From: Coprothermobacter platensis DSM 11748
Lineage (GTDB): Bacteria > Coprothermobacterota > Coprothermobacteria > Coprothermobacterales > Coprothermobacteraceae
Direction: 5' to 3'
Length of the DNA stretch: 62,158 nucleotides
Assembly (NCBI RefSeq): GCF_000378005.1
Contig: NZ_KB899040.1
Location: forward strand, 1,355,997 to 1,418,154
Made by a program: the position numbers and the translations under genes. Below the pieces are notes generated by a model. It did not search any database and was not told where the DNA came from. It was given only the letters and a program-made list of their open reading frames with translations. Shown piece by piece: positions 1 through 52,277 of the stretch (the first letter of the stretch is position 1; each line of letters starts with the position of its first letter).

Positions 1-1104
1 GATGGGACGGGTTCCACAAGGTTAAGGAGTTATGGAGCGGAAGCGAGTGAGTGGAGCTTTGGAGGTGGAGAAGCCACAACGCCCAAGGTAATGGATATGA
101 TAGTGCCTGAGGGCATGAAGCAGGAAGACATACTCAACTACAAAGAACATACAACCATCGCTTTGCCCGGTATCGCCATTGCGGATTATCTGCCCACTGT
201 TTCCAAGGTGAAAGTGCTGTCTCCACAAGATGGTACGATTACTAACCAGTTAACGGTTGATTTAAAGATAAAGGTATTGGTAGAAAACCTGACGAAGATT
301 GTTATAGGTGATAAAACATATGAAGTAAAGAGCGGGGAAAACGATATAACAGGTGTCGCTTTGCCCAGCGAAGGACAGAACGTTATTTCAATAAAAGATG
401 CCAACGGTGTTGAATTAGCTAAGGTTACGCTGGTTAGAGATACCACTCCACCGGATGTAACCATAAATACACCAAAGGAAGGCACTCTGCTTAATGACAG
501 AAAGGTTTCTGTTAGTTTGCAGACAGAACCCAACGCCAAAATATTGCTCGGTTTGAGCGCTCCTAATGGGAGCCAGGCAGATGTTATCAGCACATCGGCC
601 GATTCTACAGGAAAGCTGAACATAGATGTTGCTTTTAGAGCGTTTACCGGTATCAACATATTAAAAGCTGTGGTTACCGATAGTGCTGGAAACAGCACAA
701 CAAAGTATGCGCTGTTTGCATATGGTATGCCTCAAACGTTAAAACTGACCATAGGCAAGACGGACATGACCGTGAATGTAGACACAGTAAAATTGGATGC
801 TGCTCCTTACATAAAGAATGCAAGAACCATGGTGCCTGTAAGGGCCATAGCAGAAAGCCTTGGCGCTCAGGTTTCTTACGATGAAAGTACTAAAGGCATT
901 ACAGTGACATTGGGTAACCACACCATTAAACTAACTGTGGGCAGCACAGAAGCAACGGTCGATGGAAAAGCGGCCACATTAGATGCTCCTGCAGAAATTG
1001 TAAATGGTAGAACATTCGTTCCCGTTCGGTTTATAACAGAAGCATTTGGCTGCACCGTTAGTTGGGATGCTAAGACAAGAGTTGTTACAGTAACATACCC
1101 GTAA
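1..1104 (+). CDS. C-terminal part of a secreted glucan-hydrolase-like protein with Ig-like and stalk modules (5' truncated by window edge)
   Basis: The frame is open from base 1, so the gene begins outside the window and the ATG at 91 is internal. The visible part aligns throughout with the C-terminus of the next gene's product: the end of a glucodextranase-C/DOMON-like domain (MDMIVPEGMKQ), two Ig-like stretches around RDTTPPDVTI, and a copper-amine-oxidase-N1-like (stalk) module over roughly the last 120 residues with the paired signatures RTMVPVRAIAE and RTFVPVRFITEAFG. It is therefore probably the tail of a paralogous exported carbohydrate-active enzyme. No catalytic domain is visible, so the enzyme activity is unknown. 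A terminator follows directly. Confidence 0.8.
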   Translation, partial: DGTGSTRLRSYGAEASEWSFGGGEATTPKVMDMIVPEGMKQEDILNYKEHTTIALPGIAIADYLPTVSKVKVLSPQDGTITNQLTVDLKIKVLVENLTKIVIGDKTYEVKSGENDITGVALPSEGQNVISIKDANGVELAKVTLVRDTTPPDVTINTPKEGTLLNDRKVSVSLQTEPNAKILLGLSAPNGSQADVISTSADSTGKLNIDVAFRAFTGINILKAVVTDSAGNSTTKYALFAYGMPQTLKLTIGKTDMTVNVDTVKLDAAPYIKNARTMVPVRAIAESLGAQVSYDESTKGITVTLGNHTIKLTVGSTEATVDGKAATLDAPAEIVNGRTFVPVRFITEAFGCTVSWDAKTRVVTVTYP

Positions 1105-1121
1105 CGAATGCGCATACAAAG

Positions 1122-1161
1122 GGGAAACACACCCTCACTTTGGTGAGGTGTGTTTCCCTCC
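1122..1161 (+). terminator. Rho-independent terminator
   Basis: A 16-bp stem (GGGAAACAC.. with GTGTTTCCC) has a 4-nt TTTG loop and one bulged base, and is followed by CTCCTT. It lies just after the stop at 1104. The hairpin's right arm contains the GTG at 1150, which argues against that codon as a start for the next gene. Confidence 0.75.
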
Positions 1162-1197
1162 TTGAAAAGATTTATTAGCAAAGGGGGAGTGAGAGCG

Positions 1198-4100
1198 GTG
1201 AAGAGGTTTTTAAGTGCGATAGTGGTGCTGCTAATGTGTGTCACACTGTCGCCCGTAGGGACAATAAGGGCACAAAGCGAGCCAGTCCTCACGTTAGGTA
1301 GTGTTAATGTGCCTTTCGTGTATCGTGATGGCTACTATGTTGCCAGTGCTACAGTGAACAATGATGTTAAGAGTTTTAGTGTAAATGGAGGTCTTTTACC
1401 CTCTTATGAACAAGAAATTACGGCTACGGAAGCCAGACTGTTGGTAGTGAACTATCATGATGGAGCTTTTCATTATAAACTTCTACCAATCCAAAGTGAT
1501 GGTGCTGTCATGAGTGATGTGCGTTTGCTTAGATATCCTGAAGGCGCTGTGCCGGCTAACCAAGCTGTGACCTTTTACGTGTACACCCCACGCAGGGATG
1601 TGAGCAAGGTTGTTATCACATTGACAGACAGGGGCTTAAGCGATGAGCAGGCGCCTTCCAGTGGTAAACCCAAATCCTCTCAGGACATAGAACTAAAGAA
1701 AGTTGCTGAATCCAACGATGGATTTTACGATGTTTGGCGTTACCAGTTTACGCCCACCACTGTTACGTGGTATCAGTACACTGCTTACGCCTACGACGGC
1801 AGTACAAAACGTAAAGTGGATGAAGGACGCTTAACAGTTTATGACCCTTCATTCAAAACACCTGATTGGTTGAAAAATGCTGTTATTTATCAAATTTTCC
1901 CAGACAGATTCAAAGATGGTAACCCTGATAATAATGTGACCCAGGAAGGACAGAAATTCACATTCCATGACGCTTACCTGAATGAAGATTTCACCCTTCC
2001 AGGCGATTACATGGGACAGCTCATACAGGGTGCGCAGTGGAGCGAACCTGTTACGTCTTGGGCCACAGTGACCATGACGGATGGTACCAAAAAATGTGGA
2101 TATGTGGACTCTTACAGGTTCTACGGTGGTGATTTGGAAGGCATCATACAGGAACTGGATTACCTTCAAAGTCTCGGTGTAACAGCTATTTACTTAAACC
2201 CCATATTCCCTTCAGAAAGCACGCACCGTTATGATCCAGCCAGCTATTTTGCCGTGGATCCGCGGCTCGGCGACCCAGAAACGTATCAAAAACTGACCCA
2301 AGAAGCAGCTAAACGTGGTATCCGCATCATTGACGACATAACGCCTGACCACAGCGGAGATGATTCTATCTACTTCGATGTGAAGGGCGCTTACACATCC
2401 ACAGGCGCACACGAAAGTCAAGATTCCCCATACTATGCGTGGTACAACTTCACCCAGTGGCCCGATAAGTGGGAAGGGTGGGGCGGATTTAGCGCCATGC
2501 CCATCATCAATGTGCTGAACAAGGATGTTCAGAAGTTTTTCCTCACAGGCGACAACAATGTTATGAAATACTGGAATGATCTGGGCAGTTCTGGGTGGCG
2601 TGTGGATGTGGCCATGCAGGTTCCTATGGGTTTTACCAGAGCCATGAGACAAACCTTAAAGAGCTTGAATCCAGACAATGTCATGATTGCTGAAGTGTGG
2701 GACCATTATGAACAAGCTATCCCCATGCTTCTGGGTGATTCCTTTGATAGTGTTATGAACTACCGTATTCGCTCTTTGCTCATCGGTGATTGGGACAATG
2801 ATCATGCAGGGACGAACCCACAGTATCAGGGATTTTTCCTCAAAAAAGATATGACGCAGGAAGATTTCTGGGCTAAGTACATGCAAATGAAGAATGATTA
2901 CCCCAAAGAAGCGTTTTATGCCATGATGAATTTAGTGGACAGCCACGATGCGGCAAGGCCCATGTACTACTTGAGCAGTACATGGCAAAACAGTGCTACT
3001 TCAGCTTTGAAAGCCCTTTCATTTTTCCTCTACACCATACCAGGCGCCCCCACCACGTTCTATGGTGATGAAGCAGGAGCCACCAATGGTGGTAGTTACG
3101 GTTGCAACCAAGACAGACCGCTTACCGATGACCCATTCATGCGCGTACCGTTCCCATGGGGCAACGAAGATACAAACTTGCAAGCGTGGTACAAAAATCT
3201 GGGCGCTATAAGAAATCAGTATTCATTCCTGCGTACAGGGGAGATTGAACCGTTGCAAGTGCAAGGCAGTGACAGGGTTGTCGCTTACCTCAGGTACGAT
3301 GCAAATGGGACAGCTTTAGCGCTTTTCAACGGTTCTGACGCGCCAGCCACTGTAACGGTGAACCCCGGTTACTACGTGAAGAACAATGCAACGTTGAAAG
3401 GTGTCATAGGCACCGATATGAAGGTGGAGAATGGCTTAGTTACCTTAACTCTTCAGCCTTTTGAAACCAGGCTTGGTGTTACCACCGACAGCATCAGCAA
3501 TGCTAAGGTTTTGGATTTGCAAGGTACGGCCACGGGCCAAACGGTTTCTCTTTCTTTTACCGGAAGTGCCGTTGTGGAAAAACGTGACCTAACCACAGGC
3601 GAAGTTACCACGTTGAATGCAAAAGATGGCCTGACAGATACGGCTCGCGCTGGCCATTCCTATGTTTACACGGTATCCGTTCTCAGTGAAGGGCTCAAAG
3701 TTGCTCAAGGCATTTACGCAGTGGACATAGAAGGTAATGAAACTGTGGAACCGCCTATAACGGCGCAAGAGCAAGAAGAAACAGGGACTTCCACTCAAAC
3801 GTTTACCTCCATCGTCATAGAGGACCCCACGGGCGATGACAATGGCCCTGGCTACTACACTTATCCCACTGATTCGGTTTTTAAGAAAGGTGATTTTGAC
3901 CTTCTCAAGTTCGAGTTGGGTTTAAGCAGTGGCATTTACACCGCCACATACAGTGTGGGTAACCTGGACAATGCATGGGGAAGCACGAACGGTTTAAGCA
4001 AAGCTACATACTTCCTTTTCATCGACAATAAACCCAATGACGGCACTACTCAAGGCATACAGGGCTTAAATGTCGCTTTTGCTGACAATTTCAAGTGGGA

Positions 4101-5415
4101 TGTCGGTCTGCAAATAGAAGGATGGGAAAGTAAGGTTTACCAAGTCAATAGCGGAGAAATCAATGCCGTAAATGCCTCCGACTTAGGCGTGGAAATAAAA
4201 GGAACGGAAGGCGCTCCTGGACGTGTTGTCGTTACCATACCTCAAAGTGTTTTAGGCGCCCTCACGCCGGAAAGCAAAATGATGATCATGGTGGCAGGGC
4301 AAGATGGTTATGGTGTAAACCGCATAAGACAAGTTACCCCAGAAGCTCAGCAGTGGCGTTTTGGTGGAGGTAATGAAGCAGGTACGGCTCCTGCCGTATT
4401 GGACATGTTTGTCCCAGAGGGCATGAAACAGTCAGACTTGCTCGATTACAAAACACACAGCGTCGCTTTACCTGGTATACCGCTGAAGCCTTTCTTCACC
4501 ACAGAAGGTGCAGAGCGGCTTACCGTACTCACACCTCAAGATGGTACACTGCTGAATACGACAACCATTGATATAAAGGTCAAAGTAACGGATACCAACT
4601 TAAAGCAAGTGGTGGTTGGCGAGCAGTCTTTCGATGTCACACAAGGAGAGAACACTCTTTCAGGCGTTCAGTTGCCTAATGAAGGTGAAAACAGCATTCA
4701 GATTAAAGACGTAGCAGGAACAGTGCTCGCCACTGTAAAACTCATACGTGATACCACACCGCCACAAATAGAGATTATTTCTCCAAAAGAGGGCACATTG
4801 CTTACCGATCGTGCTTTTGGTGTGACCGCAAAGACAGAACCAAATGCAAAAGTGGTCTTGGAGTTGTTTGCCCCCGGCGGATTAACGGCAGATGCGGTAA
4901 GCACCAATGCTGACGCTCAGGGCAATGTGAAGGTGGATGTGGCTTTCCGTGCTTTTCAGGGGCTGAACATCATGAAAGCCACTGTCACCGATGGCGCTGG
5001 TAACAGCAGTGCTGTTTACACGTTGTTTGCCTATGGCAGAGCGCAAACGGCTAAGCTCACCATCGGCTCAAAATCCATGGATGTTAATGTGGACACCGTG
5101 ACATTGGATGCTGCTCCCTTTATAAAAGACGGCAATACCATGGTTCCTCTGCGCGCCATAGCGGAAGCTTTCGGTGGCGTGGTAAGTTGGGATGAAAGCT
5201 CAAAAACTGCAAAAATCAGTTTCGCTGGCCACATCATCAGCCTTAGCATTGGCAGTAAAGAAGCGGTGGTAGATGGAAAAACACTTTCTATGTCACTCCC
5301 AGCAGAAATTGTTAATGGCCGTACCTTTGTTCCAGCACGCTTTATCGCTAATGCCTTTGGCTTGACCATAAAGTGGGACGATAAGGCAAAAACCATAACT
5401 GTTACCTATCCATAA
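1198..5415 (+). CDS. Secreted GH13 alpha-amylase/neopullulanase-type glycosidase with C-terminal stalk module
   Basis: Predicted extracellular hydrolase of alpha-glucans, 1405 aa. The frame opens at GTG 1150, but that codon lies in the upstream terminator; GTG 1198 follows AAAGGGGGAG and gives a proper signal peptide (KRFLSAIVVLLM). Domains: CBM34-like N-domain (about 30-205); GH13 barrel (about 225-690) with YQIFPDRFKDG, nucleophile D470 in GWRVDVA, acid/base E499 in IAEVWDH and D584 in DSHDAAR; glucodextranase-C/DOMON-like domain (about 870-1095); Ig-like stretches with RDTTPPQIEI; and the stalk module (about 1285-1405). Conserved region I reads DITPDHSG where the family usually has D-x-V-F-N-H. 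The C-terminal 350 residues are paralogous to the preceding gene. The exact substrate cannot be decided. Confidence 0.88.
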   Translation: MKRFLSAIVVLLMCVTLSPVGTIRAQSEPVLTLGSVNVPFVYRDGYYVASATVNNDVKSFSVNGGLLPSYEQEITATEARLLVVNYHDGAFHYKLLPIQSDGAVMSDVRLLRYPEGAVPANQAVTFYVYTPRRDVSKVVITLTDRGLSDEQAPSSGKPKSSQDIELKKVAESNDGFYDVWRYQFTPTTVTWYQYTAYAYDGSTKRKVDEGRLTVYDPSFKTPDWLKNAVIYQIFPDRFKDGNPDNNVTQEGQKFTFHDAYLNEDFTLPGDYMGQLIQGAQWSEPVTSWATVTMTDGTKKCGYVDSYRFYGGDLEGIIQELDYLQSLGVTAIYLNPIFPSESTHRYDPASYFAVDPRLGDPETYQKLTQEAAKRGIRIIDDITPDHSGDDSIYFDVKGAYTSTGAHESQDSPYYAWYNFTQWPDKWEGWGGFSAMPIINVLNKDVQKFFLTGDNNVMKYWNDLGSSGWRVDVAMQVPMGFTRAMRQTLKSLNPDNVMIAEVWDHYEQAIPMLLGDSFDSVMNYRIRSLLIGDWDNDHAGTNPQYQGFFLKKDMTQEDFWAKYMQMKNDYPKEAFYAMMNLVDSHDAARPMYYLSSTWQNSATSALKALSFFLYTIPGAPTTFYGDEAGATNGGSYGCNQDRPLTDDPFMRVPFPWGNEDTNLQAWYKNLGAIRNQYSFLRTGEIEPLQVQGSDRVVAYLRYDANGTALALFNGSDAPATVTVNPGYYVKNNATLKGVIGTDMKVENGLVTLTLQPFETRLGVTTDSISNAKVLDLQGTATGQTVSLSFTGSAVVEKRDLTTGEVTTLNAKDGLTDTARAGHSYVYTVSVLSEGLKVAQGIYAVDIEGNETVEPPITAQEQEETGTSTQTFTSIVIEDPTGDDNGPGYYTYPTDSVFKKGDFDLLKFELGLSSGIYTATYSVGNLDNAWGSTNGLSKATYFLFIDNKPNDGTTQGIQGLNVAFADNFKWDVGLQIEGWESKVYQVNSGEINAVNASDLGVEIKGTEGAPGRVVVTIPQSVLGALTPESKMMIMVAGQDGYGVNRIRQVTPEAQQWRFGGGNEAGTAPAVLDMFVPEGMKQSDLLDYKTHSVALPGIPLKPFFTTEGAERLTVLTPQDGTLLNTTTIDIKVKVTDTNLKQVVVGEQSFDVTQGENTLSGVQLPNEGENSIQIKDVAGTVLATVKLIRDTTPPQIEIISPKEGTLLTDRAFGVTAKTEPNAKVVLELFAPGGLTADAVSTNADAQGNVKVDVAFRAFQGLNIMKATVTDGAGNSSAVYTLFAYGRAQTAKLTIGSKSMDVNVDTVTLDAAPFIKDGNTMVPLRAIAEAFGGVVSWDESSKTAKISFAGHIISLSIGSKEAVVDGKTLSMSLPAEIVNGRTFVPARFIANAFGLTIKWDDKAKTITVTYP

Positions 5416-6389: not shown

Positions 6390-7616
6390 ATGAGAAAAGG
6401 AATGCTTAAAACAATGTTGGTGTGCCTTACATTGGCAGTGATGGCACTGTCTGTCTGCCCGATAAGTACAGGTGCCTTTACCTCTGTGGCTGCAAACCCG
6501 GCGCCAGGCAGTAAAGGTACCATTGTCATGGCTACAACAACATCCTTCAGGGATTCTGGTTTGGCCGATGTGCTGGTGAAAGAAATGGAAAAAGTTAGCG
6601 GCTATACCATTAATCTGGTTGCTCAAGGTTCAGGTGCTGCAATATCCATGGTTCTTCGCGGTGACGCTGTGATAGCCATAACGCATGCGCCCGATTTGGA
6701 AGTTCAGCTTGTGCAAGCAGGATGGATACGCATGCCCATTATGACAAACTATTTCTACTTAGTGGGACCAAAGAACGACCCTGCGGGTGTAAAAGGAAAG
6801 ACTCTGCCTCAAGCATTTAACACCATTTATGAGAAACAAATGCCTTTTGTAAACCGCAACGACAACAGTGGCACAGACAGCAAAGAGAGAAGCATTTGGA
6901 AAAGCTTAGGCTTGGACCCGACAAAGTTCGGCAGTTGGTACATAAAAACCCAAGCTGGCATGCTCACCTCTTTACAAATTGCCAATGAAAAAGGTGCATA
7001 CATACTTACCGATGAGAGCACGTGGTTAAAGAATAAGAATCAGCTTACGAACTTGGATTACATCACCACTTCTGGAGAAGGTCTGAACATTTACAGCTTT
7101 TTCTTCAAAGACCCACAGTACAAAGTGCTTGCTGATTATCTAAAAACAGCCCAAGCACGGGATCTCATGAAACAGTATTATTTCGACCCCATAACCGATT
7201 CCACGGTTATTACCAACCCTGCCGAGACACCCAGCACAGTAAAATTGGCCATTGGTTTTACTGCTCTTTCTGTTAGCGGGTTAGGTGGAAACGCCACTAA
7301 AAAGCTGGAAGCAGCGCCTTATATCAAAAATGGCAGGACCATGGTGCCCATAAGAGCCATAACAGAACCCTTCGGCGCTGTAGTAAGTTGGGATGATGCT
7401 ACTAAGACAGTAAGCATTAGCTTCCAGGGGCATACGGTGAAGATGGTCATCGGCAACAATGTAGCTACCGTGGACAATACAACAAAAACCATGGACGCTC
7501 CTCCGGAAATAGTAAAGGGCAGAACTTTCATACCTGCACGTTTTGTCAGCGAATCGCTGGGCTTCAATGTGAAGTGGGACGAAAAAACGCGTACGGTTTC
7601 TGTAAGTTATCCATAA
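6390..7616 (+). CDS. tupA: Tungstate ABC transporter substrate-binding protein fused to a C-terminal stalk module
   Basis: Extracellular binding protein of 408 aa. ATG 6390 is chosen because AGAAGGGGG precedes it and it opens a signal peptide; the GTG at 6324 lies upstream of the promoter. The N-terminal two-thirds carry TupA signatures: TTTSFRDSGL, VAQGSGAAISMVLRGDA, ITHAPDLE, LVGPKNDPAGVK and RNDNSGTDSKE. Residues about 285-408 form a copper-amine-oxidase-N1-like module with RTMVPIRAITEPFG and RTFIPARFVSESLG. The signal peptide lacks a proper lipobox (LSVC), so the module may replace the usual lipid anchor. Permease and ATPase genes follow, supporting anion uptake. Tungstate rather than molybdate is inferred from the TupA-like motifs. 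Confidence 0.88.
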   Translation: MRKGMLKTMLVCLTLAVMALSVCPISTGAFTSVAANPAPGSKGTIVMATTTSFRDSGLADVLVKEMEKVSGYTINLVAQGSGAAISMVLRGDAVIAITHAPDLEVQLVQAGWIRMPIMTNYFYLVGPKNDPAGVKGKTLPQAFNTIYEKQMPFVNRNDNSGTDSKERSIWKSLGLDPTKFGSWYIKTQAGMLTSLQIANEKGAYILTDESTWLKNKNQLTNLDYITTSGEGLNIYSFFFKDPQYKVLADYLKTAQARDLMKQYYFDPITDSTVITNPAETPSTVKLAIGFTALSVSGLGGNATKKLEAAPYIKNGRTMVPIRAITEPFGAVVSWDDATKTVSISFQGHTVKMVIGNNVATVDNTTKTMDAPPEIVKGRTFIPARFVSESLGFNVKWDEKTRTVSVSYP

Positions 7617-8980: not shown

Positions 8981-9856
8981 ATGAGTGATTGGCATTTGCA
9001 ATTAAAGAAAGTTATTGCCCTCATGGTGCTTGTGTTCTTTACGTTGGGTGGCTCTTTACCCTTGTTCCCGCGCCATGTGAACGCTTCTATAAATTACAGT
9101 GAACAGCCTGCTTTTGTGCCCTTGGCGCTAAAAAAACTCGAGCTTACCGCTTCTCCTTCCGTGGTCACCGCAAGCGAGGATGCCCATGTAATGCTTTCTT
9201 TGCGCGATGTTACCAGCGCCAGCACACCCACGGCTATTGAGCAGGGGTCTTTGGTTACAGTGATGGTAGGCAGTTTCACCACTACTGCTACCGTAGGCAA
9301 AAAGGGCATGGCATCTGTAACACTGCCTGCTGAAGTTATTACCGGCAGCCGTTTAGTCGCAGTGGTCATTGTTCCTGGTTATCAAAAGGCTGCATTCACT
9401 CTTTTAGTTCAAAGTGCAACATTAAAAAGCGGATTAACTTCCAATGCTGAACAAAACAGCGTAACAGTGGAGCTTCAAATAGGCAATCCAGTGTGCAAGG
9501 TAAACGGAAAGAACGTGCGGCTGGGGGTTTCGCCTTACATAAAGGAAGGTAGAACCATGGTTCCCATTCGCTTCTTTGCTGAAGTTCTCAATTACCGTGT
9601 GCAGTACGACTTTTCTGACCCTCATATGAAACGCATCATGATTTACACACCGGAGCAGAATAAAAAAGATGCCCCGTTTATGACCATGTTCATTGACCAA
9701 AGCGCTGTTCTGATTGGTGGTGTTTTGGTAGAGATGGAAACTGCTCCAGAGCTCGTTACTGGCACTACCATGGTTCCTCTGCGTTTTGTGGCGCAAACAC
9801 TGGGCTACACAGTGCAGTGGAAACCCAATGTAATCATAGTGCGCTCCAATCCATAA
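8981..9856 (+). CDS. Secreted Ig-like plus stalk-module protein
   Basis: Exported protein of 291 aa with an N-terminal signal (KKVIALMVLVFF), one Ig-like repeat (about 54-146, ASPSVVTASEDAHVML to GYQKAAFTLLV) and a copper-amine-oxidase-N1-like module (about 155-291). The module is of the longer subtype, with VQYDFSDPHMKRIMIY between the two signatures GRTMVPIRFFAE and GTTMVPLRFVAQ. The Ig repeat is related to the repeats in the proteins at 13695 and 15642. No ribosome binding site precedes ATG 8981 and the sigma-54-like promoter leaves a very short leader; a TTG at 8996 is an alternative. Function unknown beyond a surface role. Confidence 0.75.
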   Translation: MSDWHLQLKKVIALMVLVFFTLGGSLPLFPRHVNASINYSEQPAFVPLALKKLELTASPSVVTASEDAHVMLSLRDVTSASTPTAIEQGSLVTVMVGSFTTTATVGKKGMASVTLPAEVITGSRLVAVVIVPGYQKAAFTLLVQSATLKSGLTSNAEQNSVTVELQIGNPVCKVNGKNVRLGVSPYIKEGRTMVPIRFFAEVLNYRVQYDFSDPHMKRIMIYTPEQNKKDAPFMTMFIDQSAVLIGGVLVEMETAPELVTGTTMVPLRFVAQTLGYTVQWKPNVIIVRSNP

Positions 9857-10068: not shown

Positions 10069-13000
10069 ATGAATGTTTGTGGTAAGAGGAAAAATCAAGT
10101 AAGACGGTTATTCTCGTTGATTACCAGCATCGTTGTTGCCGCTGCGCTTATGTTTTCTGTATCTCCTTCTGTGGGTGCTGCCACCAAAAACAGCACAATT
10201 ACTTCCACAGAGACACGCCAAACTGTTTTAAATGCGCTTCAGTCTTATGCTCTCAGTGTTCCTAAAAGTACGGTTGTAGTGGATGGCGGTTTGGTATTAC
10301 CGAAGGACGTTTATGAAGGCATAACAAGCAGCGGAGGAAAGGCAAAGCTGTTTGTTGAGGTAAACCAAAAAGTTGACACCCAAAGCCCGACTTATCGAGC
10401 GCAAGCAGATGCCGCTCACATGTTAGCTTTCGCACAGATAAAACTTGCTGCACCTGATGCTGTGAAAAAAGCTGATTTGTACTACACTATGAACGGTTTC
10501 ACCATGGAAGTTCCCCTTGCTCAGCTTAAGAATGTGCTTTCACAGGAAGGCAGTGGAGCTGTTAAATCCATGGCGCTATCTAAACGTTATGAAATAAATG
10601 ATGAGTTGAACACGGTCCCTGATGGTGGCGTAGTTTCTCCCCAGATGGTGAACTCCGCCACGCTCATAGGTGTACCTGAAGCTTGGAGCCAAGGTTATAC
10701 AGGTTCGGGAACATACGTTGCCATTATCGACAGTGGCATCGATTATAAGCACGAGAACTTCGGCGGTTACACCAGTTTCCCCAATGAAAAAATCCCTTAC
10801 GGCTATGATTTTGCCGATAAGGACGCAGACCCCATGGATGCCAACGTTGCTATTGGCGGTCATGGCACGCATGTAGCCGGTACTGTAGCAGGCATAGGTA
10901 AAGCTTCGTTCCCTGACAAAGATGGAAATCAAATTCCTTTGAAGGGCATAGCACCGGATGCCAAACTCATAGCAGTGAAAGTGTTCAGCGATAAAAGCCA
11001 GAATGCTTACGGCGATGATATCGTAGCTGGCATTGACTACCTTATCAATCTTAAGAAAAGTGGCGTGAACGTGGTTTCTGCAAACATGTCACTTGGATCG
11101 ACCAAAGGTTTTGATGACCCTGAAGACCCCGAACAAAAAGCCATTAATGCCGCGGTGGAATCTGGCATTACCATGGTCATAGCCGCTGGCAATGACGATT
11201 ACAGCAACTACTCCGCCATCATCCCCGGAGACGCCGATGAAGGCACTGCTTCCACCACTTACATAAAGGATGTTTCCACACTGGGCTCTCCCGGAACCGC
11301 TACCTCAGCCATAACCGTAGCCGCTGTAAACAATGAAGGCGTGGTACTGCAAGGAAAGAAGCTCACTTTCGGTGACAAGCAATATGTTCTGTATTTAGCC
11401 AGTGGTGAAGCACCAGACCCCGTGGATGTGTTTAAGAAAGAAACGGTAAAACTTGTGGATACGGGCAGTATCATGTGCGCAAATGATGGAAAAGATTACA
11501 GCGGTAAAGTAGTGCTGCTCGATAGAGGCACGTGCACCTTTGAGGTGAAGGTGGGCATTGCTAAAGAAGAAGGCGCCATCGGTGTGGTTGTGGGCAATAA
11601 CAATACAGATAGAACATTGGTGTCCATGGCGCTGGGCTCCTCTGCAAGCACCATCCCAGCCGTTTTTGTGAATGGTCCGGACAAGCTCACGCTCAGAAAA
11701 GCCATAGCCGATGCAGGTGGCACCATGGATGTCGTTTTTAGCGACGAAGAGGCAATCAGTTACGCTCCCGCAGATGCAAACGTTGTCGCTGACTTTAGCT
11801 CCTGGGGTCCATCCCCCGATTTATCTTTTAAGCCCACCGTAGCAGCTCCGGGTGTAAGCATATTTTCTTCTATCCCCGGTGATAAGTATGAAACGATGCA
11901 GGGTACATCCATGGCAACGCCACATGTGGCAGGCGCTGTAGCCCTCATAAAACAGGCACACCCTGATTGGACGCCAGAGCAAATAAAACAGGCACTGGTA
12001 AACACAGCGGAGCCCATTGGTTTTTACAGCCCACGTTTGCAGGGTGCTGGCAGAATCAATGTTGCCAAAGCCATAGAAAATGGTGTTTTCGTTACTTCAG
12101 CCGTCACGGGTGAACCTTATGCCGAGTTGGGCATGTTCACCTCCAGCACCGCAATGACGTTGTCAGTAAAGAACACCACCACGCAAACATTTACCGCCAC
12201 ACTGGACGGCTACGTTACCACGTCACACAGTCAGTACGGCACAAGCAATGAAGGCAAAGTTGTGGAAATAGGCACGTTAAGTATGCCGTCAGCAATCACC
12301 GTAAATGCGGGAGAAACAGCCACCTTTGATGCCGTAGTCAATGCAGACCCAACATGGAACAATACCTTCATCGAAGGCCGTGTTCTGCTAACTTCAGCGG
12401 ACAACAATGTGTGGGTTTTACCGTTCATGGGTTATTTGGGTGATTGGAACATTTACAGTGACCCTGACACCATAAATGGTGATGCAAAGTTCCCGGACAA
12501 CAACAACATTGTGGACCTTCCATGGTGGAATGCTGATTTTACGTGGACTGGTTCTACCGGTCTTTACTGGCCTCAGCAACCCAGTGTTTACATACCGTTG
12601 GGTATGAAGGGTGACGGGTTTGATCCATCCGCTTTAGCCATCAGTGCTGGGTCTCCTTATAGCATCATGAATAACAGTGTGCAGGTTGTACTTACCATGT
12701 TAAGAAATGCAGAAAACCTTAATATCAGTGTGCTGGATGGCACAGGCAGCGTTGTGAAAACCATAGCAAAAGAAGAAATGGTTCGTGGCAACTACCTAAA
12801 GAGCACAGAGAATCCATCGTGGTATGACGGTTGGAATCATCCATGGTTCTGGGATGGCACCGATGAGAGCGGCAAACTTCTGCCAGAAGGCAATTACACC
12901 GTGCGCATAGAGGCATACCCCGGCAAGCTCATTACGGGTCAAGATACGGCAACGCAGATTATGGATATGCCCATTGCCATTGACCGCACCCAGCCCACGG

Positions 13001-13694: not shown

Positions 13695-15350
13695 ATGGTA
13701 AAAAAGGCAAAAAAGCTATTTTCACTCATAGCAGTTCTGTCGCTCATCTTTACGCTTGTGCCTGCTCTTGGTGTTGGAGCGCAGGAGGAGGCTCTGCCTT
13801 CGCTTGTGGTAACAGCGAGCCCCAACGCTGTCTTTTTAGGTGCTGATGCCACCATAACGCTGTCACTCACAGACGGCGCAGGTTCCCCTGTGGCAGGAGG
13901 CATTTCTGCCATCATTTCCGTAGATGGGCTCGGTTTTGCCACAGTGACCAACAGCGCCACCGATGGTTCCATTGTGGTGGTAATTCCTCAAAGCAAGCTT
14001 GCAGAGGGCACCTTTGAAGGCAGTGTAATGGTTTCAGGTTATCAAAAGGGTGTTTTCACACTGCAAGTGGCTGGCAAGCAGCTTGTGGCTGCTCCCACTT
14101 CTGCAACCATTACCTTTGGCCAAAAAGTGCCTCTTGCAATCACCTTAAAGAGCGAAACAGGTTCCGTAGTTCCTCAGGGCGTAGAGGCTTTGCTGTCACT
14201 TCCCAAAGGCTCCGTAGTGGCAAAGGTGGGCGCTGATGGCGTGGCTGATTTTACTCTCACCCCTGACCAGCTCATGGTTGGCAACTGCACCGCCATTTTA
14301 AGTGTGGAAGGCTATGCCGATGCCGTGATTACCCTGAACATTGTTCCCGGTGCACTGCTTACCGACCCGGCCAACTTTGATGTATCTTTTGCGAAGACGG
14401 TAACGCTGGTATTCGGCGTCTTGGAAGAAAGCAGTTCCACAGCCCTTCCCGAAGGCACGCCCATCACCTTTGCACTGGACGATTTTGTTAAAACCGTTAC
14501 CTTAGGCAAAGACGGCACAGCCACCATCACGCTTGGCCCTGAACAGCTTAAAGTGGGCGAAACGCTTGAACCCACATTGAAAGTGGAAGGTTATGATGCG
14601 GTAAAACTGCCCATTAACGTTAAAGAGGGCTTGCTCAAGCTTGACCCTGCAGAGCTTACTGTGAGCGGCAAGCAGGATGTAACTTTTACCGTGACATTGA
14701 TGGACAGCGCCAGCATGGATGTTCCTTACATGCTGAAGGATGAGCAGTTAGTAGCGACATTCACCTTTGGGCCCATATCAGCCACTGCTGCCGTGGGTAA
14801 AAACAGCAAAGTTACTTTTACCTTGACGGCATCCGTTTTTGAAGAGCTGGGTGGCGGCACCTTTGACAGCGCCGTTATGCTTTATGGTTTCGCCAGCGCG
14901 CCTTTTAAATTTTCTATAACGGACCTGCCGCAGAAAGAACAGCCTCAGGAACCAGAGGAGCCAACTGCTTCAGGAACAGTAATTGCTTTTACCATTGGTT
15001 CCAACACCTTCATATTCAACGGTGAAACCAAACAGCTTGATGTGGCTCCTTACATCGCCGATGGACGTACCATGGTGCCTCTTAGAGCTTTGTGCGAAGC
15101 CTTGGGCTTGACCGTTAATTATGACTTTACCAAGCCAGATGAGAAAAAAGTAACCATCAGCGGGGCAGAAGATATCGTTCTGACTGTGGGCAGTAAAACA
15201 GCTCTAATAGGTGGCGAAGCGGCTTCTTTGGATGCGGCGCCAGTCATAGTTTCTGGAAGAACCATGGTGCCTGTAAGGTTTTTGGCTGAGGCGTTGGGCT
15301 TTGCCGTAGATTATTCCGACGGCGTTGTAACCTTGACGCAGCAGCCCTGA
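13695..15350 (+). CDS. Secreted four-repeat Ig-like protein with stalk module
   Basis: Exported protein of 551 aa. ATG 13695 follows AAAAGGAGG and opens a typical signal peptide (KKAKKLFSLIAVLSLIF). Four Ig-like repeats of about 90 residues (about 35-125, 127-215, 219-305, 311-410) each end in a GY/GF plus alternating hydrophobic strand (GYQKGVFTLQV, GYADAVITLNI, GYDAVKLPINV, GFASAPFKFSI). A Pro/Glu linker (PQKEQPQEPEEP) leads to a stalk module (about 427-551) with GRTMVPLRALCEALG and GRTMVPVRFLAEALG. It lies 116 nt after the protease gene. It is probably a cell-surface structural or spacer protein. Confidence 0.8.
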   Translation: MVKKAKKLFSLIAVLSLIFTLVPALGVGAQEEALPSLVVTASPNAVFLGADATITLSLTDGAGSPVAGGISAIISVDGLGFATVTNSATDGSIVVVIPQSKLAEGTFEGSVMVSGYQKGVFTLQVAGKQLVAAPTSATITFGQKVPLAITLKSETGSVVPQGVEALLSLPKGSVVAKVGADGVADFTLTPDQLMVGNCTAILSVEGYADAVITLNIVPGALLTDPANFDVSFAKTVTLVFGVLEESSSTALPEGTPITFALDDFVKTVTLGKDGTATITLGPEQLKVGETLEPTLKVEGYDAVKLPINVKEGLLKLDPAELTVSGKQDVTFTVTLMDSASMDVPYMLKDEQLVATFTFGPISATAAVGKNSKVTFTLTASVFEELGGGTFDSAVMLYGFASAPFKFSITDLPQKEQPQEPEEPTASGTVIAFTIGSNTFIFNGETKQLDVAPYIADGRTMVPLRALCEALGLTVNYDFTKPDEKKVTISGAEDIVLTVGSKTALIGGEAASLDAAPVIVSGRTMVPVRFLAEALGFAVDYSDGVVTLTQQP

Positions 15351-15390
15351 GTACATAAGTAGAAGATAAACTAACCTCCTTCATTACGCG

Positions 15391-15424
15391 GGCGTTCCCC
15401 CATATGGGGGAACGCCTTTTTTGT
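15391..15424 (+). terminator. Strong rho-independent terminator
   Basis: GGCGTTCCCCC-atat-GGGGGAACGCC, a perfect 11-bp stem with a tetraloop, is followed by TTTTTTG. It isolates the surface-protein gene downstream from the protease block. Confidence 0.9.
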
Positions 15425-15433
15425 TCACAGCAG

Positions 15434-15448
15434 TGGCACGTTTGTTGC
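15434..15448 (+). promoter_or_regulatory. Sigma-54-type (-24/-12) promoter of the large surface protein
   Basis: TGGCACG-TTTG-TTGC again fits the RpoN consensus perfectly and sits just after a terminator, exactly where a promoter is needed. The predicted transcript start near 15460 leaves a leader of about 180 nt. Confidence 0.65.
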
Positions 15449-15511
15449 GCATAAAAAGAATTGAGAAGCTCCTGCGGTGGTATAAAAACGTAAAAGCACA
15501 AAAAGGAGCAG

Positions 15512-15641: not shown

Positions 15642-18600
15642 ATGAAAGCAAGCAAGAAATTATTTGCACTGCTCGCCGTACTGACTATGGCTTTGACACT
15701 CATGCCTATTACTGCGCCAGTAAGTGCAGCTACAGGGTTAGTCATTGACCCATCTACCGCTACCATTTTTGTTGGCGAAACGAAACAGTTAACGTTAACC
15801 TTAGATGGTGGTTCTCTTGGTGGTAGCTATGTTGTTTCTTGGGACACTGCCTCGCATGGTATAGCTACCGTAAACGGCAATGGTTTAGTGACTGCAGTCG
15901 CTGCTGGACAAACAACCGTTACAGCCACTGTTAAAACTAGTGGCGACACAGTTATTGGTACAGCACAAGCAGCTATCAATGTAGTTGCAAAGCCGACTAC
16001 TCCTGGAGAATTGGTTGGCAATACAGCTATTACTGCTGCTCAGGATATTAGTTTAGACCCTATTATTAATGCCACTATAAACTTCACAGCTACGACCGCC
16101 TCTATAGATCCCAGTTATGTACTTGGATTAAAGATAGAGGGAAGCTCAGCACTTTCTGGAACGACGGCAAGTGTAATGCTTAAGACGGCGCAAACATCAT
16201 CTTCTTTTGATGCTAATGGAACAACTACTATAGTTTTCACAGCACCTTTACTTAATCAGCTTACCCCTACGAACACGTTAAGAATTGAATTAATGAGCGG
16301 CAGCTACATCTATCTGCCCAGTGAGACCACCGTTACTATCACACTTTTTGGTGGGACAGCAGCAGAAATCAATGCTGGTACAGCCAGTGTACTTGCGAGC
16401 AAAGCTGTAACCTTAAACCCTCACACATTCAGTTTGCAGAGGCCTGACCAGATAGTTCTAACGCCTAACCAAACAGCTACTTACCAAATTACGCCAAAAC
16501 TCGCCAATATTGCAGCTTCTGCATTTACATCTGCTACTCTTGGTGCTGTCGCCAATGATTCCAACGTAGTGACGACTATAAGCATAGATAACAATACTGG
16601 ACTAACAGTAAAAGCAGGTTCCAATCCCGGCTCTACATACGTTACTATCACAGCTACAGTTAGATACAGTGGCCACGATTACACTGCCACAGCAATAATT
16701 CCGGTAATTGTTTCTCAGCCTGCTGATGGTATAGTCCTTTATAATGCGGCTGGTTCTTGGGTTACAGCAGATCAGCTTCGTTACAAGGTAACCTATGATG
16801 TAGTAAATGCATACAACACGCAGAATTTGGCAGTACAGGTCACCAGTAGCAATGGAATAGTTCTCGGTTCAGCCCAACTTGGTCAACCAGTGCTCATACC
16901 TTTTACAACATTGGTGAACAGTTTAGGCCAAACAGACACTTATTTGAAACTGAGTGTTGTTGGTGGTACTACCAGTGTGACAGTGCCAATAACATTCCTA
17001 TCACTTGATGATTCAACGTTTGCCAGCTCTTATGTTAGTGGCCAGCCGGTGGGTACTGTGACAGGTACCATAAACAATGTTAAGTATTGGCCTCTTTCTG
17101 GCAACATCCCCTTAGCTTTGGTTGCTGTATGGACTGCTCCTGATGGAAGCACCAAGTCAGCACTTGTGCCATCTGCTACATTTACAGCAACACTCTTAGC
17201 TGATGACAATACTACAGCAACATTCTCTGTTCCATCTAACGTCCGCTTCACGGTTCCAGCGGGCAGCGTATATCTTGTTTCCAAGAGCATAGCTGACGCC
17301 ATGGTAGATGGAAAAGTATATGGTGTATCTGTTGCAAAGTATGCCTATAAGACCATCACCATTACCCAAGGTACTTTGGTTGCTAATCCAAACACCGTAA
17401 ACGCTCCAGCTACAAAAGAGATTTATCTGTACGACCAGTTTGGTTATCCTCTGGCTGGTACACAAGTTAAGCTTCAGTATGGATATAAGGACGCAAATGG
17501 CAATGTTATACCAGCTATTACCGCTACGACAAATGCTGATGGTAAGGTTTCTTTTAACTTCCCACAGCCATACGCATTCGGAACTTACACTGCTACCATT
17601 TCAACGTTTAAGTCTGGCGCTTATGTTGATGGTGCAGTAGCTCTGACCGTTTCTTATGCAGGCGGCTTCAGCTTAGGCGATTTAGCTATGACGGGGTCCA
17701 TTGGCTCACTTAATATGCACGTGATTTCTACAACTGCTTCCATAAGCAAACTTTGGATCAGTGTCGATGATACAAGTACAGTTTTAGAAACTTTTGCAGC
17801 ATACCCGAGTGGCAATGAAGTTGATTATAAGTTGGCTCCTACAGGATATACTCAGACGTTTGTATATGCCAATAACGGTGCATGTGGCGTAAGTGTTACC
17901 GACTCTTACTGGGTTGGTAATGCTAAGGACGTAACACTTACTGGTACTGCTCTTCGAGGCGGAAGCTTTACTGTAACTGCAAAGGCTGAACTTGCCGATG
18001 GCAGCATTGTAACTACCAGCAAGCAGTACATTGTCAAAGCTTATAGGATTGATAGCATCACACCAGCTTCAACAACCTATGGAACGGCTACCACAGTAAA
18101 GATAGTTGTAAAAGACTGGTATGGCAGCCCCGTTGATAATCTGCAGGTTAAACTGCTAAATGGTGCTAATGCTTACACACTGATACGTGGAGATTTCGGT
18201 ACCTATACTTATACAATACCTGGTGCTGCAACACCTGGGACATACAGTGTAGAGATCAATGGCGTAAACTACAGCACATTGAACAATGGTGTGACATACA
18301 TAAGCAATAGCTATTTCACCGTTAATCCTGCATTAGACCTTAAGGTGACCGCGCCTGCTACGGTTAATGCCATGTCCAGCTTCAATGTGGCAGTCGCCGA
18401 TGCAAACGGAAACCCAATCAATGGCAGTTGGTATGTTGTCGATCCTTACAATGAATTATATACAGTAGCAGATGGCTCCGTGGTTTCTGGGCAGTTTACT
18501 GTAAACACTGCTAACTTTAGTTCATATACTGAACTGCCACTGCCACTGGGTGCCTATACATTGGTTGTCACCGATAGCAATGGTCAGCATGGTGCGGAAG

Positions 18601-19943
18601 TTACATTCAATGTGATTGCGCCTGCAACGATTACGCCTACCGTAGTAACTAACGGCATAAGCAGCACATTTGTAGTGCAGATGACATCTACTGGTCTTAA
18701 TGCCAACCAGATCAAGTTCGCAGATGCTTCGAGAACTGTTTGGCAGGTTGGAAGCGTTAATACTACGGCTACGAAGGTTGTTTCTTTAGCTTACGGAGAT
18801 AGAAACATCAGCACAAGTGGACAGACAGCAACGGTTATAGTCAATGTTCAAAAGAAGCTTGAATGCCCTAACGCTGTTGTGCGTTTGGAGTATGGCAACT
18901 TCTTATTACCTACAAGTGTTGCTGTTGGTCACCCTCAGCTTAGCTTTGTAAACACAGCTACCCTGTATGCAGGCGACACTGTACCTATGCAGGTGAAACT
19001 CGTAGATGCTTTAGGCAATCCTATTAAAGGTGCAGTCATAAAGCTTTATCAGCTTGGTTACACTAGTTTAACTGCAACGACGTCTTCTACAGGTATTGCT
19101 GATTTTGGGTATGTAACTATTAGCGTACCTGGCAACATTGTTGCTGAATTACTGTCTAGTCCTGATGGCAAGACTGTTACTGACTACAGGCTTATCGGTC
19201 AGACAGATGATACTAACTACAAGGTAACTCAGCAGGTTTACGCTGCCAGACCCAGCCAGGAGCTTAAGGTAACCGTAACCCCGACATCTGTGGTAGAAGG
19301 GCAAAAGGCTACTTTAACACTGACATTGGTTGGTGCTGATGGCAAGGCTGTTGAGACTGGCAAGAACGTCATGGTTTCCATCGGCTCTTCCACTTTCAAC
19401 GGACTTGTGGGCGCCAACGGCGTAGTAACCGTGAACGTGGATGGTACCGCACTTACTGGCACAGTAGTAACAGGTGTAGTGAAGGTTGAGGGTTACAATG
19501 CTGCAACCTTTACTTTAGCTGTTACACCAGTGGCTAAGACCGGTACTGTCATTGAGCTTGCCGTGAACAATGATATTTACACCATTAACGGCAAGACATT
19601 GTTCTGGGATGCTACACCTTATGTGAAGGGCGGCAGAACATTAGTACCTATTAGAGCTTTGGCAGAAGCGCTTGGATTCCAGGTTACCTATGACTTCAGC
19701 GATGTCAAGAACAAGACTGTGTACATTTACAAGGCCGGTCAGGACATCGAGAAGGAAAAGGATAATCCTTACATCCTGCTTGTAATTGGTCAGCCAACCG
19801 CTATGGTTAATGGCCAGCTTGTGGGATTGGACGTTGCTCCTGAGATTCTCAACAGCAGGACCATGGTCCCATTAAGATTCGTATCTGAGACCTTGGGCTA
19901 CAATGTTGAGCTTGATGGAACAATGATCCGCCTGAGCAAATAG
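15642..19943 (+). CDS. Large secreted surface protein with Ig-like repeats and stalk module (possible S-layer-type protein)
   Basis: Exported protein of 1433 aa. ATG follows GAAGGAGGG. Signal peptide MKASKKLFALLAVLTM ending near SAATG; a Big_2-type domain (about 33-115, VTAVAAGQTTVTATV); many further Ig-like stretches rich in Thr, Val, Ser and Asn; an Ig repeat of the neighbouring family (about 1206-1296); and a C-terminal stalk module (about 1304-1433) with GRTLVPIRALAEALG and SRTMVPLRFVSETLG. Size, composition, a strong terminator on each side, its own sigma-54-like promoter and a good ribosome binding site suggest an abundant envelope protein. S-layer function is inference; SLH domains are absent. 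Confidence 0.82.
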   Translation: MKASKKLFALLAVLTMALTLMPITAPVSAATGLVIDPSTATIFVGETKQLTLTLDGGSLGGSYVVSWDTASHGIATVNGNGLVTAVAAGQTTVTATVKTSGDTVIGTAQAAINVVAKPTTPGELVGNTAITAAQDISLDPIINATINFTATTASIDPSYVLGLKIEGSSALSGTTASVMLKTAQTSSSFDANGTTTIVFTAPLLNQLTPTNTLRIELMSGSYIYLPSETTVTITLFGGTAAEINAGTASVLASKAVTLNPHTFSLQRPDQIVLTPNQTATYQITPKLANIAASAFTSATLGAVANDSNVVTTISIDNNTGLTVKAGSNPGSTYVTITATVRYSGHDYTATAIIPVIVSQPADGIVLYNAAGSWVTADQLRYKVTYDVVNAYNTQNLAVQVTSSNGIVLGSAQLGQPVLIPFTTLVNSLGQTDTYLKLSVVGGTTSVTVPITFLSLDDSTFASSYVSGQPVGTVTGTINNVKYWPLSGNIPLALVAVWTAPDGSTKSALVPSATFTATLLADDNTTATFSVPSNVRFTVPAGSVYLVSKSIADAMVDGKVYGVSVAKYAYKTITITQGTLVANPNTVNAPATKEIYLYDQFGYPLAGTQVKLQYGYKDANGNVIPAITATTNADGKVSFNFPQPYAFGTYTATISTFKSGAYVDGAVALTVSYAGGFSLGDLAMTGSIGSLNMHVISTTASISKLWISVDDTSTVLETFAAYPSGNEVDYKLAPTGYTQTFVYANNGACGVSVTDSYWVGNAKDVTLTGTALRGGSFTVTAKAELADGSIVTTSKQYIVKAYRIDSITPASTTYGTATTVKIVVKDWYGSPVDNLQVKLLNGANAYTLIRGDFGTYTYTIPGAATPGTYSVEINGVNYSTLNNGVTYISNSYFTVNPALDLKVTAPATVNAMSSFNVAVADANGNPINGSWYVVDPYNELYTVADGSVVSGQFTVNTANFSSYTELPLPLGAYTLVVTDSNGQHGAEVTFNVIAPATITPTVVTNGISSTFVVQMTSTGLNANQIKFADASRTVWQVGSVNTTATKVVSLAYGDRNISTSGQTATVIVNVQKKLECPNAVVRLEYGNFLLPTSVAVGHPQLSFVNTATLYAGDTVPMQVKLVDALGNPIKGAVIKLYQLGYTSLTATTSSTGIADFGYVTISVPGNIVAELLSSPDGKTVTDYRLIGQTDDTNYKVTQQVYAARPSQELKVTVTPTSVVEGQKATLTLTLVGADGKAVETGKNVMVSIGSSTFNGLVGANGVVTVNVDGTALTGTVVTGVVKVEGYNAATFTLAVTPVAKTGTVIELAVNNDIYTINGKTLFWDATPYVKGGRTLVPIRALAEALGFQVTYDFSDVKNKTVYIYKAGQDIEKEKDNPYILLVIGQPTAMVNGQLVGLDVAPEILNSRTMVPLRFVSETLGYNVELDGTMIRLSK

Positions 19944-47505: not shown

Positions 47506-47508
47506 GTT

Positions 47509-49816: not shown

Positions 49817-50238
49817 ATAAGACGAAACACAAATTTACTTTATATCTAATCTTTTCCTTATACCACAAAAGTAACACATATTGTTGTGGTAATGTCTAAA
49901 TTTTTCACATATCTGCCGCAATGTATTTCTTGTCTGTTGCCGGCGTAGGTGTTTTCTTCATGTTTAGGCAGACATTCTTTATTTTTGACGCATGATTTGG
50001 TTTGTCCCATTTCATACAAATAAAAATGCTCCTAAGAAGCTCGGATTCTCCAGACACGTTTTTGTCAATAACAGGGCTTTTTTTGGCCATTTCGGACTTT
50101 TATTCGCACATTCTACAAAACAGTGATATGTCCATAGCCAATATGCTCTGCGCTGTAGGTGCGAGCAAGTGGCGTTCCGTCTATCGCTCCAGCGTCTTTT
50201 TCCTTACATTTTTAGAAGGTGCTTGGCAACCCATTAAA
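49817..50238. other. Intergenic stretch with a possible gene remnant
   Basis: About 420 bases separate the lipoprotein gene from the BNR-protein terminator. On the minus strand 50090-49905 reads as a 61-codon frame (MAKKSPVIDKN... KKYIAADM) with coding-like composition but no ribosome binding site. Just upstream, other minus-strand frames (for example LLAPTAQSILAMDISLF) end in stops, as in a decayed gene. I recognise no family. Confidence 0.3.
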
Positions 50239-50266
50239 ATGCCGCCTCACTATTGTGAGGCGGCAT
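50239..50266 (-). terminator. Rho-independent terminator of the BNR-protein gene
   Basis: ATGCCGCCTCAC and GTGAGGCGGCAT form a perfect 12-bp stem with a 4-nt loop. On the minus strand it is followed by TTTTAA. Confidence 0.8.
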
Positions 50267-50291
50267 CTGTTGAGGCAAACGAATCGGAGCT

Positions 50292-52277
50292 TTAGTACTT
50301 TATCGTTACTGTTTTAGTGTCAGCATTCCAGACTACTTGGCACCCCAATTGCTCAGTTACAAACCTTAAAGGCACCATGGTGCGTCCGTTAATAATCTGT
50401 GGAGCTACATCCATATCTTTTGCTTTCCCATTTACCGTTGCCTGCTTCTTATCTATGGTAAGCACTATGGTCGTGGTTTTGAGCTTTATGGTAACTGCTC
50501 TTGCCGTGTCATTCCACGCAACGCTGCCTCCCATTGTTTCTATGAGCGCCCTTATAGGTAGCAGCGTGCGCCCTTTTACTATGACGGGCGCAGTGGTTCT
50601 ACCAGGATCAATTTCTTTCTTTGCACCGTTTACCGTCATATATGGGTCGCCTATTTTCAAGACGATGGTCAACTTACTTGTGGGTGTTGTGGCAGAACCG
50701 TAGATAACAGTTTTCTTTACTGTCACTGTGTCTCCTGCTTTGTTCGTAACCTGTATGGTGATGGTATTGGTTCCTGACGCTAAGGCCACCACGGCTGTGA
50801 AGTTACCTGAGGCATCTACGTTCACCTGCTTGCCATTCACGGTAACCGTTGACCCTGGGTCTACTTTGCCAGTGAAGGTGTACTGAGAGCTTGTTGCTTT
50901 AGCATTGTCCGGAATATTAACTACAGGCGGTGTAGGAGCTTTGGGTACTGCTGAAACTTCATTTGAAGCAGGGGATACGGTATTGTCTTTGTGGACGGCT
51001 CTGACAGTGTAGTAATAAGTTTTGCCGTTTTCTACATTCTCATCCACATAACTTGTTCCTTCAATGGGGAAGTCAGACGCAGGCTCGTCGTACTTACCAG
51101 AATAAGGACCTCTGTACACGTAGTATCCAGAGACATTGCTTGTATCAGCTGGGGCATTCCACTCAAGTGCGACTTTGCCATTTCCGGGGTATGCTTTTAG
51201 GTTGCTCACAGGGTAGTTTGGTGCACCTGCAGATTGGATCATCTTGTATGTCCCACCAGCAGAAGAACTTACACCTGCCAGTAAAATCCGAGTATCATGT
51301 GGGTTAACTTTTATAAGAGAGGTCTCAAGGAATGGTAAGCCGTTATTTATTGGAACCCAGCTATTACCACTGTCATTTGATTTTTGTACTCCGATCCCGG
51401 GATACGCACTTGCGAAGTAAACAACTTGATTGTTCTTGGGATCGATAGCGATGCTTCTTACATTAGTATGTTCATGCTTCTTTACCCAGCTTTTTCCACC
51501 ATCTGTGGTTTTGAATACGCCGTCACCTGTTGAGGCGTAAAGTATCTGTGTGTTTATGGGGTCAATTGCAAGGTCATAGATGGTAAAGTCTGTAAGCCCA
51601 TTGTTTACTTCAACCCAGTCCGTACCACTACTTGCAAATTTGTAGACACCACGTGCCCTGTCCGTTCCGGCATACACAGTTCCAGGATCTTTGGGGTCGA
51701 TAACAATGGGGTAAACGTAAGTAAAATGCAGCCCACGTTTTTCCCATGTTTGCCCACCGTTTGTAGACCTGAAAACACCCCAGAATCCAGCATAAAGTTC
51801 ATTAGGATTTGATGGATTTATGGCAAGACAATCGACGCGGCATGTTCCTCCAGGGCAGTCACGGAAACCATCATTGATGGGTGTCCATGTCTGGCCTTTA
51901 TCCATGGATTTGAAAACACCATAGTCTCCTCCTAAGTCGCTTGCTGCTGCGTAAATTATTTGGGTATTCGTAGGATCAATAACAATGTCTACTATTGAAC
52001 AACAACTCAATCCTAAAAGTGACCAATGGTCCCCTCCGTCCGAGGATACAAAAATTCCTCTGTTTGTTTCATTTGAACCAGACAAGGCTGCATAAACCAG
52101 CTGCGGGTCTTGGGGATCAAACACGATCTGGTCGAACCTGAAGTCAGATACTCTGTACCATTTGTCATATTCAGGAATAACTGCAGAAACTTTACCTATG
52201 GGCACCATGCTGATAACTAATCCTAAGAGGGCTACTATCACAATTACTTGCTTGACAAACTTCATATTTTTGGTCAT
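50292..52277 (-). CDS. Secreted BNR/Asp-box beta-propeller protein with Fn3, Ig-like and stalk modules
   Basis: Exported protein of 661 aa. ATG follows CAGGAGGTGG. Signal peptide VKQVIVIVALLGLVISM. Residues about 35-345 hold at least seven Asp-box (BNR) repeats of the form S-x-D-x-G-x-x-W (SSDGGDHWS, SMDKGQTWT, STNGGQTWE, TTDGGKSWV, SNDSGNSWV), indicating a sortilin- or sialidase-like beta-propeller. An Fn3 domain (about 352-445), an Ig-like domain (about 447-527) and the stalk module (about 535-661, GRTLLPIRALIETMG, GRTMVPLRFVTEQLG) follow. Sialidase catalytic residues are not evident. Probably a carbohydrate- or protein-binding surface protein. Confidence 0.85.
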   Translation of the reverse strand: MTKNMKFVKQVIVIVALLGLVISMVPIGKVSAVIPEYDKWYRVSDFRFDQIVFDPQDPQLVYAALSGSNETNRGIFVSSDGGDHWSLLGLSCCSIVDIVIDPTNTQIIYAAASDLGGDYGVFKSMDKGQTWTPINDGFRDCPGGTCRVDCLAINPSNPNELYAGFWGVFRSTNGGQTWEKRGLHFTYVYPIVIDPKDPGTVYAGTDRARGVYKFASSGTDWVEVNNGLTDFTIYDLAIDPINTQILYASTGDGVFKTTDGGKSWVKKHEHTNVRSIAIDPKNNQVVYFASAYPGIGVQKSNDSGNSWVPINNGLPFLETSLIKVNPHDTRILLAGVSSSAGGTYKMIQSAGAPNYPVSNLKAYPGNGKVALEWNAPADTSNVSGYYVYRGPYSGKYDEPASDFPIEGTSYVDENVENGKTYYYTVRAVHKDNTVSPASNEVSAVPKAPTPPVVNIPDNAKATSSQYTFTGKVDPGSTVTVNGKQVNVDASGNFTAVVALASGTNTITIQVTNKAGDTVTVKKTVIYGSATTPTSKLTIVLKIGDPYMTVNGAKKEIDPGRTTAPVIVKGRTLLPIRALIETMGGSVAWNDTARAVTIKLKTTTIVLTIDKKQATVNGKAKDMDVAPQIINGRTMVPLRFVTEQLGCQVVWNADTKTVTIKY

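Follow-up and report, generated by a model that had tools for sequence, protein, structure and literature searches.

The result that OlpC binds secondary cell-wall polymer, the closest precedent for the system described here, reportedly stems from Pinheiro 2009. A passage of PMC4582956 reports that OlpC of Clostridium thermocellum binds this polymer through a PF07833 module, which was named the cell surface-binding module (CSBM), a name that is also used in PMC5590126 and PMC6780208. Both OlpC and ScaG have been assigned to Pfam family PF07833 (PMC3413522), and PF07833 proteins were recovered in the surfaceome of Desulfotomaculum reducens, in a study whose screened wall-binding domains did not include PF07833 (PMC4137172). 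The principle of wall anchoring is already known, having been reported for one PF07833 homologue (OlpC), while the family still carries a copper amine oxidase name in databases. The analysis presented below indicates that in Coprothermobacter the PF07833 module, as a putative wall anchor, very probably holds exported proteins on the cell wall. Because this module has already been called a CSBM, the anchoring proposal is not new as such. A literature search found no description of such a PF07833 system in Coprothermobacter, nor usable work on the envelope or surface proteome of this genus.

The window, which is the whole stretch of DNA analysed, comprises 62,158 nucleotides of the genome of the heat-loving Coprothermobacter platensis DSM 11748 (1.42 Mb; 44% GC in the window). 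An earlier note on this DNA had proposed that seven products end in an established module with a paired signature (R-T-M-V-P-x-R ... R-T-x-x-P-x-R-F). This proposal agrees with the Pfam results: PF07833 (Cu_amine_oxidN1, "stalk") lies at the C-terminus in 7/7 named genes with E values from 7e-56 to 2e-28, every score well exceeding the curated threshold of 24.2 bits, and the paired R-T-x-V-P-x-R motif is visible in the alignment (Table 1). Within NCBIfam, the module is caught only by the full primary-amine-oxidase models and has no dedicated model. The N-terminal parts had been called unrelated, which is correct for four cargo classes (GH13/glucodextranase-type, tungstate-binding, Ig-like and BNR) and not for seven, because the gene at position 1 is a paralogue of the GH13 gene, with 56% identity to its C-terminal quarter, and 8981, 13695 and 15642 have Ig-like parts that are related to one another. 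The gene at position 1 is partial because an assembly N run directly adjoins the left edge of the window; the tandem oligopeptide-binding genes at the right end also contain N runs. The GH13 gene has PDB matches to maltogenic amylase and neopullulanase and encodes a signal peptide at its start. For the TupA-like protein, which is followed by ABC genes at 7732 and 8348, the NCBIfam TupA match (2.9e-38) falls under the curated cut-off of that model. A subtilase gene within the cluster of module genes (10069-13578) has no PF07833 match in Pfam, and no SLH match was found by Pfam in the module genes of the window.

Table 1. Genes of the window that encode a PF07833 module (E values from Pfam).
Product	Gene position	Strand	PF07833 module and evidence
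3' part of GH13/glucodextranase-type exoprotein (PF09985 + Ig-like)	1..1104	+	~718-1101; Pfam, two stretches, 7.4e-56
Exported GH13 neopullulanase/maltogenic-amylase-type enzyme with PF09985 'SLH-like' domain	1189..5415	+	~5032-5412; Pfam
TupA-like tungstate-binding protein without lipobox	6390..7616	+	~7239-7613; 6.7e-39 (PBP_like_2, 1.9e-26)
Short Ig-like exported protein (gene 8981 of the earlier note)	8996..9856	+	YDF subtype, ~9446-9853; Pfam 4.5e-30, alignment, tree
Repeated Ig-like exported protein	13695..15350	+	YDF subtype, ~14970-15347; Pfam 2.3e-44, alignment
Large Ig-like exported protein, 1433 aa (Big_2, partial SpaA/MG4)	15642..19943	+	YDF subtype, ~19521-19940; Pfam 2.4e-28, AlphaFold2
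BNR/sortilin-type beta-propeller + glucodextranase-B Ig domain	50292..52277	-	~50295-50672; Pfam 5.3e-36

The genome-wide domain search that the earlier note had suggested returned 16 PF07833 matches in 15 proteins of the source genome, which was examined outside the window through targeted stretches. In three of these 15 proteins, a phosphodiester-glycosidase (NAGPA)-type protein, a sugar-binding protein and an S41 protease, the module is N-terminal and directly follows the signal peptide. PF07833 is present in 9/9 sampled Coprothermobacterota genomes, and the module lies at a protein end in 51 of the 52 complete exported PF07833 proteins of this phylum (37 C-terminal, 13 N-terminal and one both), compared with 7.3 expected at random. 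In other genomes, mostly from Bacillota, end placement is observed in 81/92 complete proteins (18.7 expected), with an internal module in the remaining 11. The fetched loci were chosen by motif pattern, and this choice accounts for part of the motif conservation among them but does not affect placement. The module had been described as a C-terminal sorting device, too narrow a description for one that serves at N-terminal as well as C-terminal ends; the anchoring role itself is supported in the form of surface attachment.

The module is rarely found on the same protein as another surface anchor. As in a CSBM-type arrangement, PF07833 occurs on Sec-exported proteins without another recognisable anchor, the exceptions being one locus (L185) and some truncated or gapped gene starts. 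SLH repeats are absent from all listed PF07833 proteins. A screen of the wider set for lipoboxes and membrane segments, which like signal peptides were called by simple scripts and not by SignalP, gave six positives: four are doubtful, with the Cys within the hydrophobic core, a fifth is a marginal segment that lies within the module, and the sixth, L185 from outside Coprothermobacterota, combines a convincing lipobox with the module.

The envelope of the phylum was considered through profile searches. No match to Omp85/BamA (PF01103) at E<=0.001 was found in nine Coprothermobacterota genomes, whereas 7/14 control genomes were positive, as expected, and outer-membrane (diderm) export was rejected on this basis. 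Sortase (PF04203) likewise had no match at E<=0.001 in the nine genomes, with three controls positive, again as expected, and LPXTG/sortase anchoring was also rejected. As neither Omp85 nor sortase was found, Coprothermobacterota are most likely single-membrane cells, in which exported proteins would need some means of retention. SLH repeats (PF00395) are few, with three over the cut-off in the source genome, all in one other gene (1276690-1277196), and none to 13 in the other sampled genomes. A CsaB-like pyruvyltransferase family (PF04230) is present in 7/9 genomes.

Solute-binding proteins provide a good test of attachment because single-membrane cells must keep them near the transporter. 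Fifty-one such proteins with an intact N-terminus, from four Pfam families and TupA, were compiled from Coprothermobacterota: 13 carry PF07833, six SLH, 21 a lipobox, two an inner membrane segment and nine an N-terminal hydrophobic segment only. None of the 51 combines two of PF07833, SLH and lipobox. A lipobox is found in 0/13 proteins with the module, TupA included, versus 21/32 with neither module nor SLH (p = 3.7e-5), and lipoprotein anchoring of the module-bearing proteins was therefore rejected. Genes of related genomes are not independent; after hand collapse to protein groups, the values are 0/7 versus 10/17 (p = 0.019). On solute-binding proteins, the module thus substitutes for the lipobox or for SLH repeats. 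This exchange can be seen between two sugar-binding proteins of one family in a single genome of the same genus (G001), where L037 has a lipobox and L045 the module. Outside the phylum, L163 from a distant bacterium, which is a PstS-like protein, carries the module and lacks a lipobox. That each solute-binding protein has exactly one anchor is not proven, because the hydrophobic segment could be cleaved off in the nine proteins that have no other candidate anchor.

To describe the module itself, an AlphaFold2 model was examined (pLDDT 94.7, pTM 0.87). The modelled module consists of two like repeats, each of five strands, a helix and two further strands. This architecture bears on a rival reading, in which the module serves oligomerisation or stability and dimerises or stiffens exported proteins with no binding to the wall. 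The PF07833 domain of the Paenibacillus lautus Cu/Zn-SOD (8IMD) forms the dimer interface of the homodimeric enzyme and adds ~12 degrees to its melting temperature (PMC10432803), and in our reading its single-repeat dimer resembles the modelled two-repeat module. However, two repeats in one chain can satisfy the dimer interface internally, so that dimerisation is not needed, and the SOD study used protein expressed away from cells. Dimerisation alone also accounts neither for the placement at either end nor for the replacement of lipobox or SLH on solute-binding proteins, and we consider this reading unlikely.

Surface attachment, which is the best-supported reading, is also consistent with the nature of the cargo and with the charge of the module. 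The cargo is very varied, with 62 Pfam families in 50 proteins and 80 in 55. Part of it consists of hydrolases (GH13, subtilases and GH10), as would be expected of a CBM-like binder of an external polysaccharide or peptide substrate; however, no substrate is common to tungstate-, sugar- and amino-acid-binding proteins, S41 proteases and Ig-like proteins, and binding to such a substrate instead of the cell's own wall is highly improbable. The net charge per 100 aa is +2.15 for the module versus -1.60 for the cargo, and the module is the more positive part in 50/58 proteins (sign test, 1.6e-8). A basic module on acidic cargo is expected if the ligand is an anionic wall polymer.

The closest structural relative in the PDB search is domain D1 of the E. 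coli copper amine oxidase, which supports the PF07833 fold of the model (75 residues, rmsd of 1.3 Å, Z 12.8); nothing else stands out in that search, which is no argument against other relatives. D1 covers model residues 37-111 alone, corresponding to the second half of repeat 1 and the first half of repeat 2. Within this aligned part, the R-T-P-R positions of repeat 2 are occupied in D1 by K-A-S-T, and the second Arg of repeat 1 by Asp. As D1 keeps the fold without these residues, they may serve binding and not folding. The conserved positions of the module are R, T, V, P, E, D, G, W and N. A role as a metal or copper domain, which the family name and the partial match of D1 to the fold would imply, is barely credible, given that the conservation analysis shows no conserved His or Cys in the module and that the window proteins have no Pfam match to the amine-oxidase catalytic domain, an absence that also led us to reject a copper amine oxidase identity for these proteins.

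Two subtypes, a short one and one with an inserted Y-D-F-S/T segment, had been distinguished in the module. The YDF variant at 8981, 13695 and 15642 stands in both alignment and tree: YDF modules form one supported clade together with 15642 orthologues that come from two other genomes and lack the exact Y-D-F motif. The 'short' type is in effect all the rest, and treating the two as equal subtypes was rejected, as the tree places the BNR module apart from those of GH13 and TupA. The latter two form one group (support 93/90) despite unrelated cargo, which points to module shuffling within the locus. In the structural comparison that had also been suggested, the YDF-subtype module of 15642 (AlphaFold2, pLDDT 93.2, pTM 0.84) shows the same predicted fold and has longer loops in its central part.

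Taken as a wall anchor, the module would operate as follows. Proteins would be exported by Sec with a cleavable signal peptide that has no lipobox, and the folded module would then bind a cell-wall polymer non-covalently, most likely an anionic secondary wall polymer. Enzymes, Ig-like proteins and solute-binding proteins would thereby stay attached to the cell, and the module could function at either protein end, as SLH does. It would be one of several anchoring means, alongside lipoprotein anchors, membrane segments and a small number of SLH proteins, in an apparently single-membrane phylum in which sortases were not detected. We infer wall binding in Coprothermobacter, its ligand and the role of the R-T-x-V-P-x-R arginines in binding.

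The scale at which PF07833 is used and its use on solute-binding proteins instead of a lipid anchor are new here; there seems to be no earlier description of PF07833 as a main surface anchor that extends even to nutrient-binding proteins. In a wider and tentative proposal, to which we give somewhat less than an even chance, PF07833 may be a general further non-covalent wall anchor beside SLH/CWB2 in Bacillota, Coprothermobacterota and Caldisericota. In this view, even the solute-binding proteins of ABC transporters would be held by the module instead of a lipid, the arginines of the two motifs would form the polymer-binding site, and the Coprothermobacter YDF clade would be an anchor sub-specialised for Ig-like surface-layer proteins of the cell itself. 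If PF07833 is a wall anchor throughout, many exported proteins annotated as "hypothetical, copper amine oxidase-like" could be assigned to the cell surface. It would also become possible to read the envelope of Coprothermobacterota, a little-studied phylum that apparently has a single membrane, as one in which a polymer-binding module, and not a lipid, retains solute-binding proteins and digestive enzymes. The module could also supply a display tag, possibly a heat-stable one.

Compared with known systems, the N-terminal domain of the P. lautus Cu/Zn-SOD is alike in belonging to PF07833 and in being part of an exported enzyme, one that has no lipobox because it has no Cys. It is unlike the module in being a single repeat that homodimerises, and its structural match to the module model is weak (Z 3.3). 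The SLH domain shares more features with the proposed anchor: both are repeat modules at protein ends with varied exported cargo, attachment to the wall is non-covalent (here as a proposal), and both occur on solute-binding proteins in Coprothermobacterota. SLH acts through three repeats on a pyruvylated polymer. In contrast, PF07833 is a separate Pfam family with two repeats per module. The CSBM of OlpC and ScaG likewise consists of PF07833 on Sec-exported proteins, and OlpC is reported to be anchored through it to secondary cell-wall polymer (PMC4582956, PMC3413522). In this comparison, made through Pfam annotation, the difference lies in the cargo, which is single-cohesin scaffoldins in OlpC and ScaG, whereas in Coprothermobacter enzymes, solute-binding proteins and Ig-like proteins carry the module, mostly at the C-terminus and in ~15 proteins of a 1.4 Mb genome.

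At the N-terminal positions where assembly N runs cover two copies of the tandem oligopeptide-binding genes in the genome containing the window, the orthologues in the closed genome of the same genus (G001) carry SLH repeats, and the SLH count in the window's genome is therefore probably too low. As solute-binding proteins, those of loci L096 and L107 appear to be wall-anchored rather than lipid-anchored.

Oligopeptide-binding genes and proteins in the window's genome (G000) and its relatives
Feature	Location
Tandem oligopeptide-binding gene	window 60287-62158
Tandem oligopeptide-binding gene	G000:C1 560-1771
Tandem oligopeptide-binding gene	G000:C1 1421696-1422934
Oligopeptide-binding protein with N-terminal SLH repeats	L096 (G001:C1 122000-131000)
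Oligopeptide-binding protein with N-terminal SLH repeats	L107 (G004, same family)

A PF07833 module of 137 aa stands alone, without its own signal peptide (L019, 6010-6423), and may be what is left of a broken gene; L094 holds another short module like it. The contig of another PF07833 protein (L138) bears the label Woesearchaeota archaeon, which may reflect contamination or transfer.

Two Ig-like proteins (window 13695-19943), one with a length of 1433 aa, might serve Coprothermobacter platensis as surface-layer or fibre proteins. Finally, the GH13 protein (window 1189-5415) also has a Pfam match to PF09985; because Pfam describes this family as an 'SLH-like' binding module of glucodextranase, the protein may hold two attachment modules.
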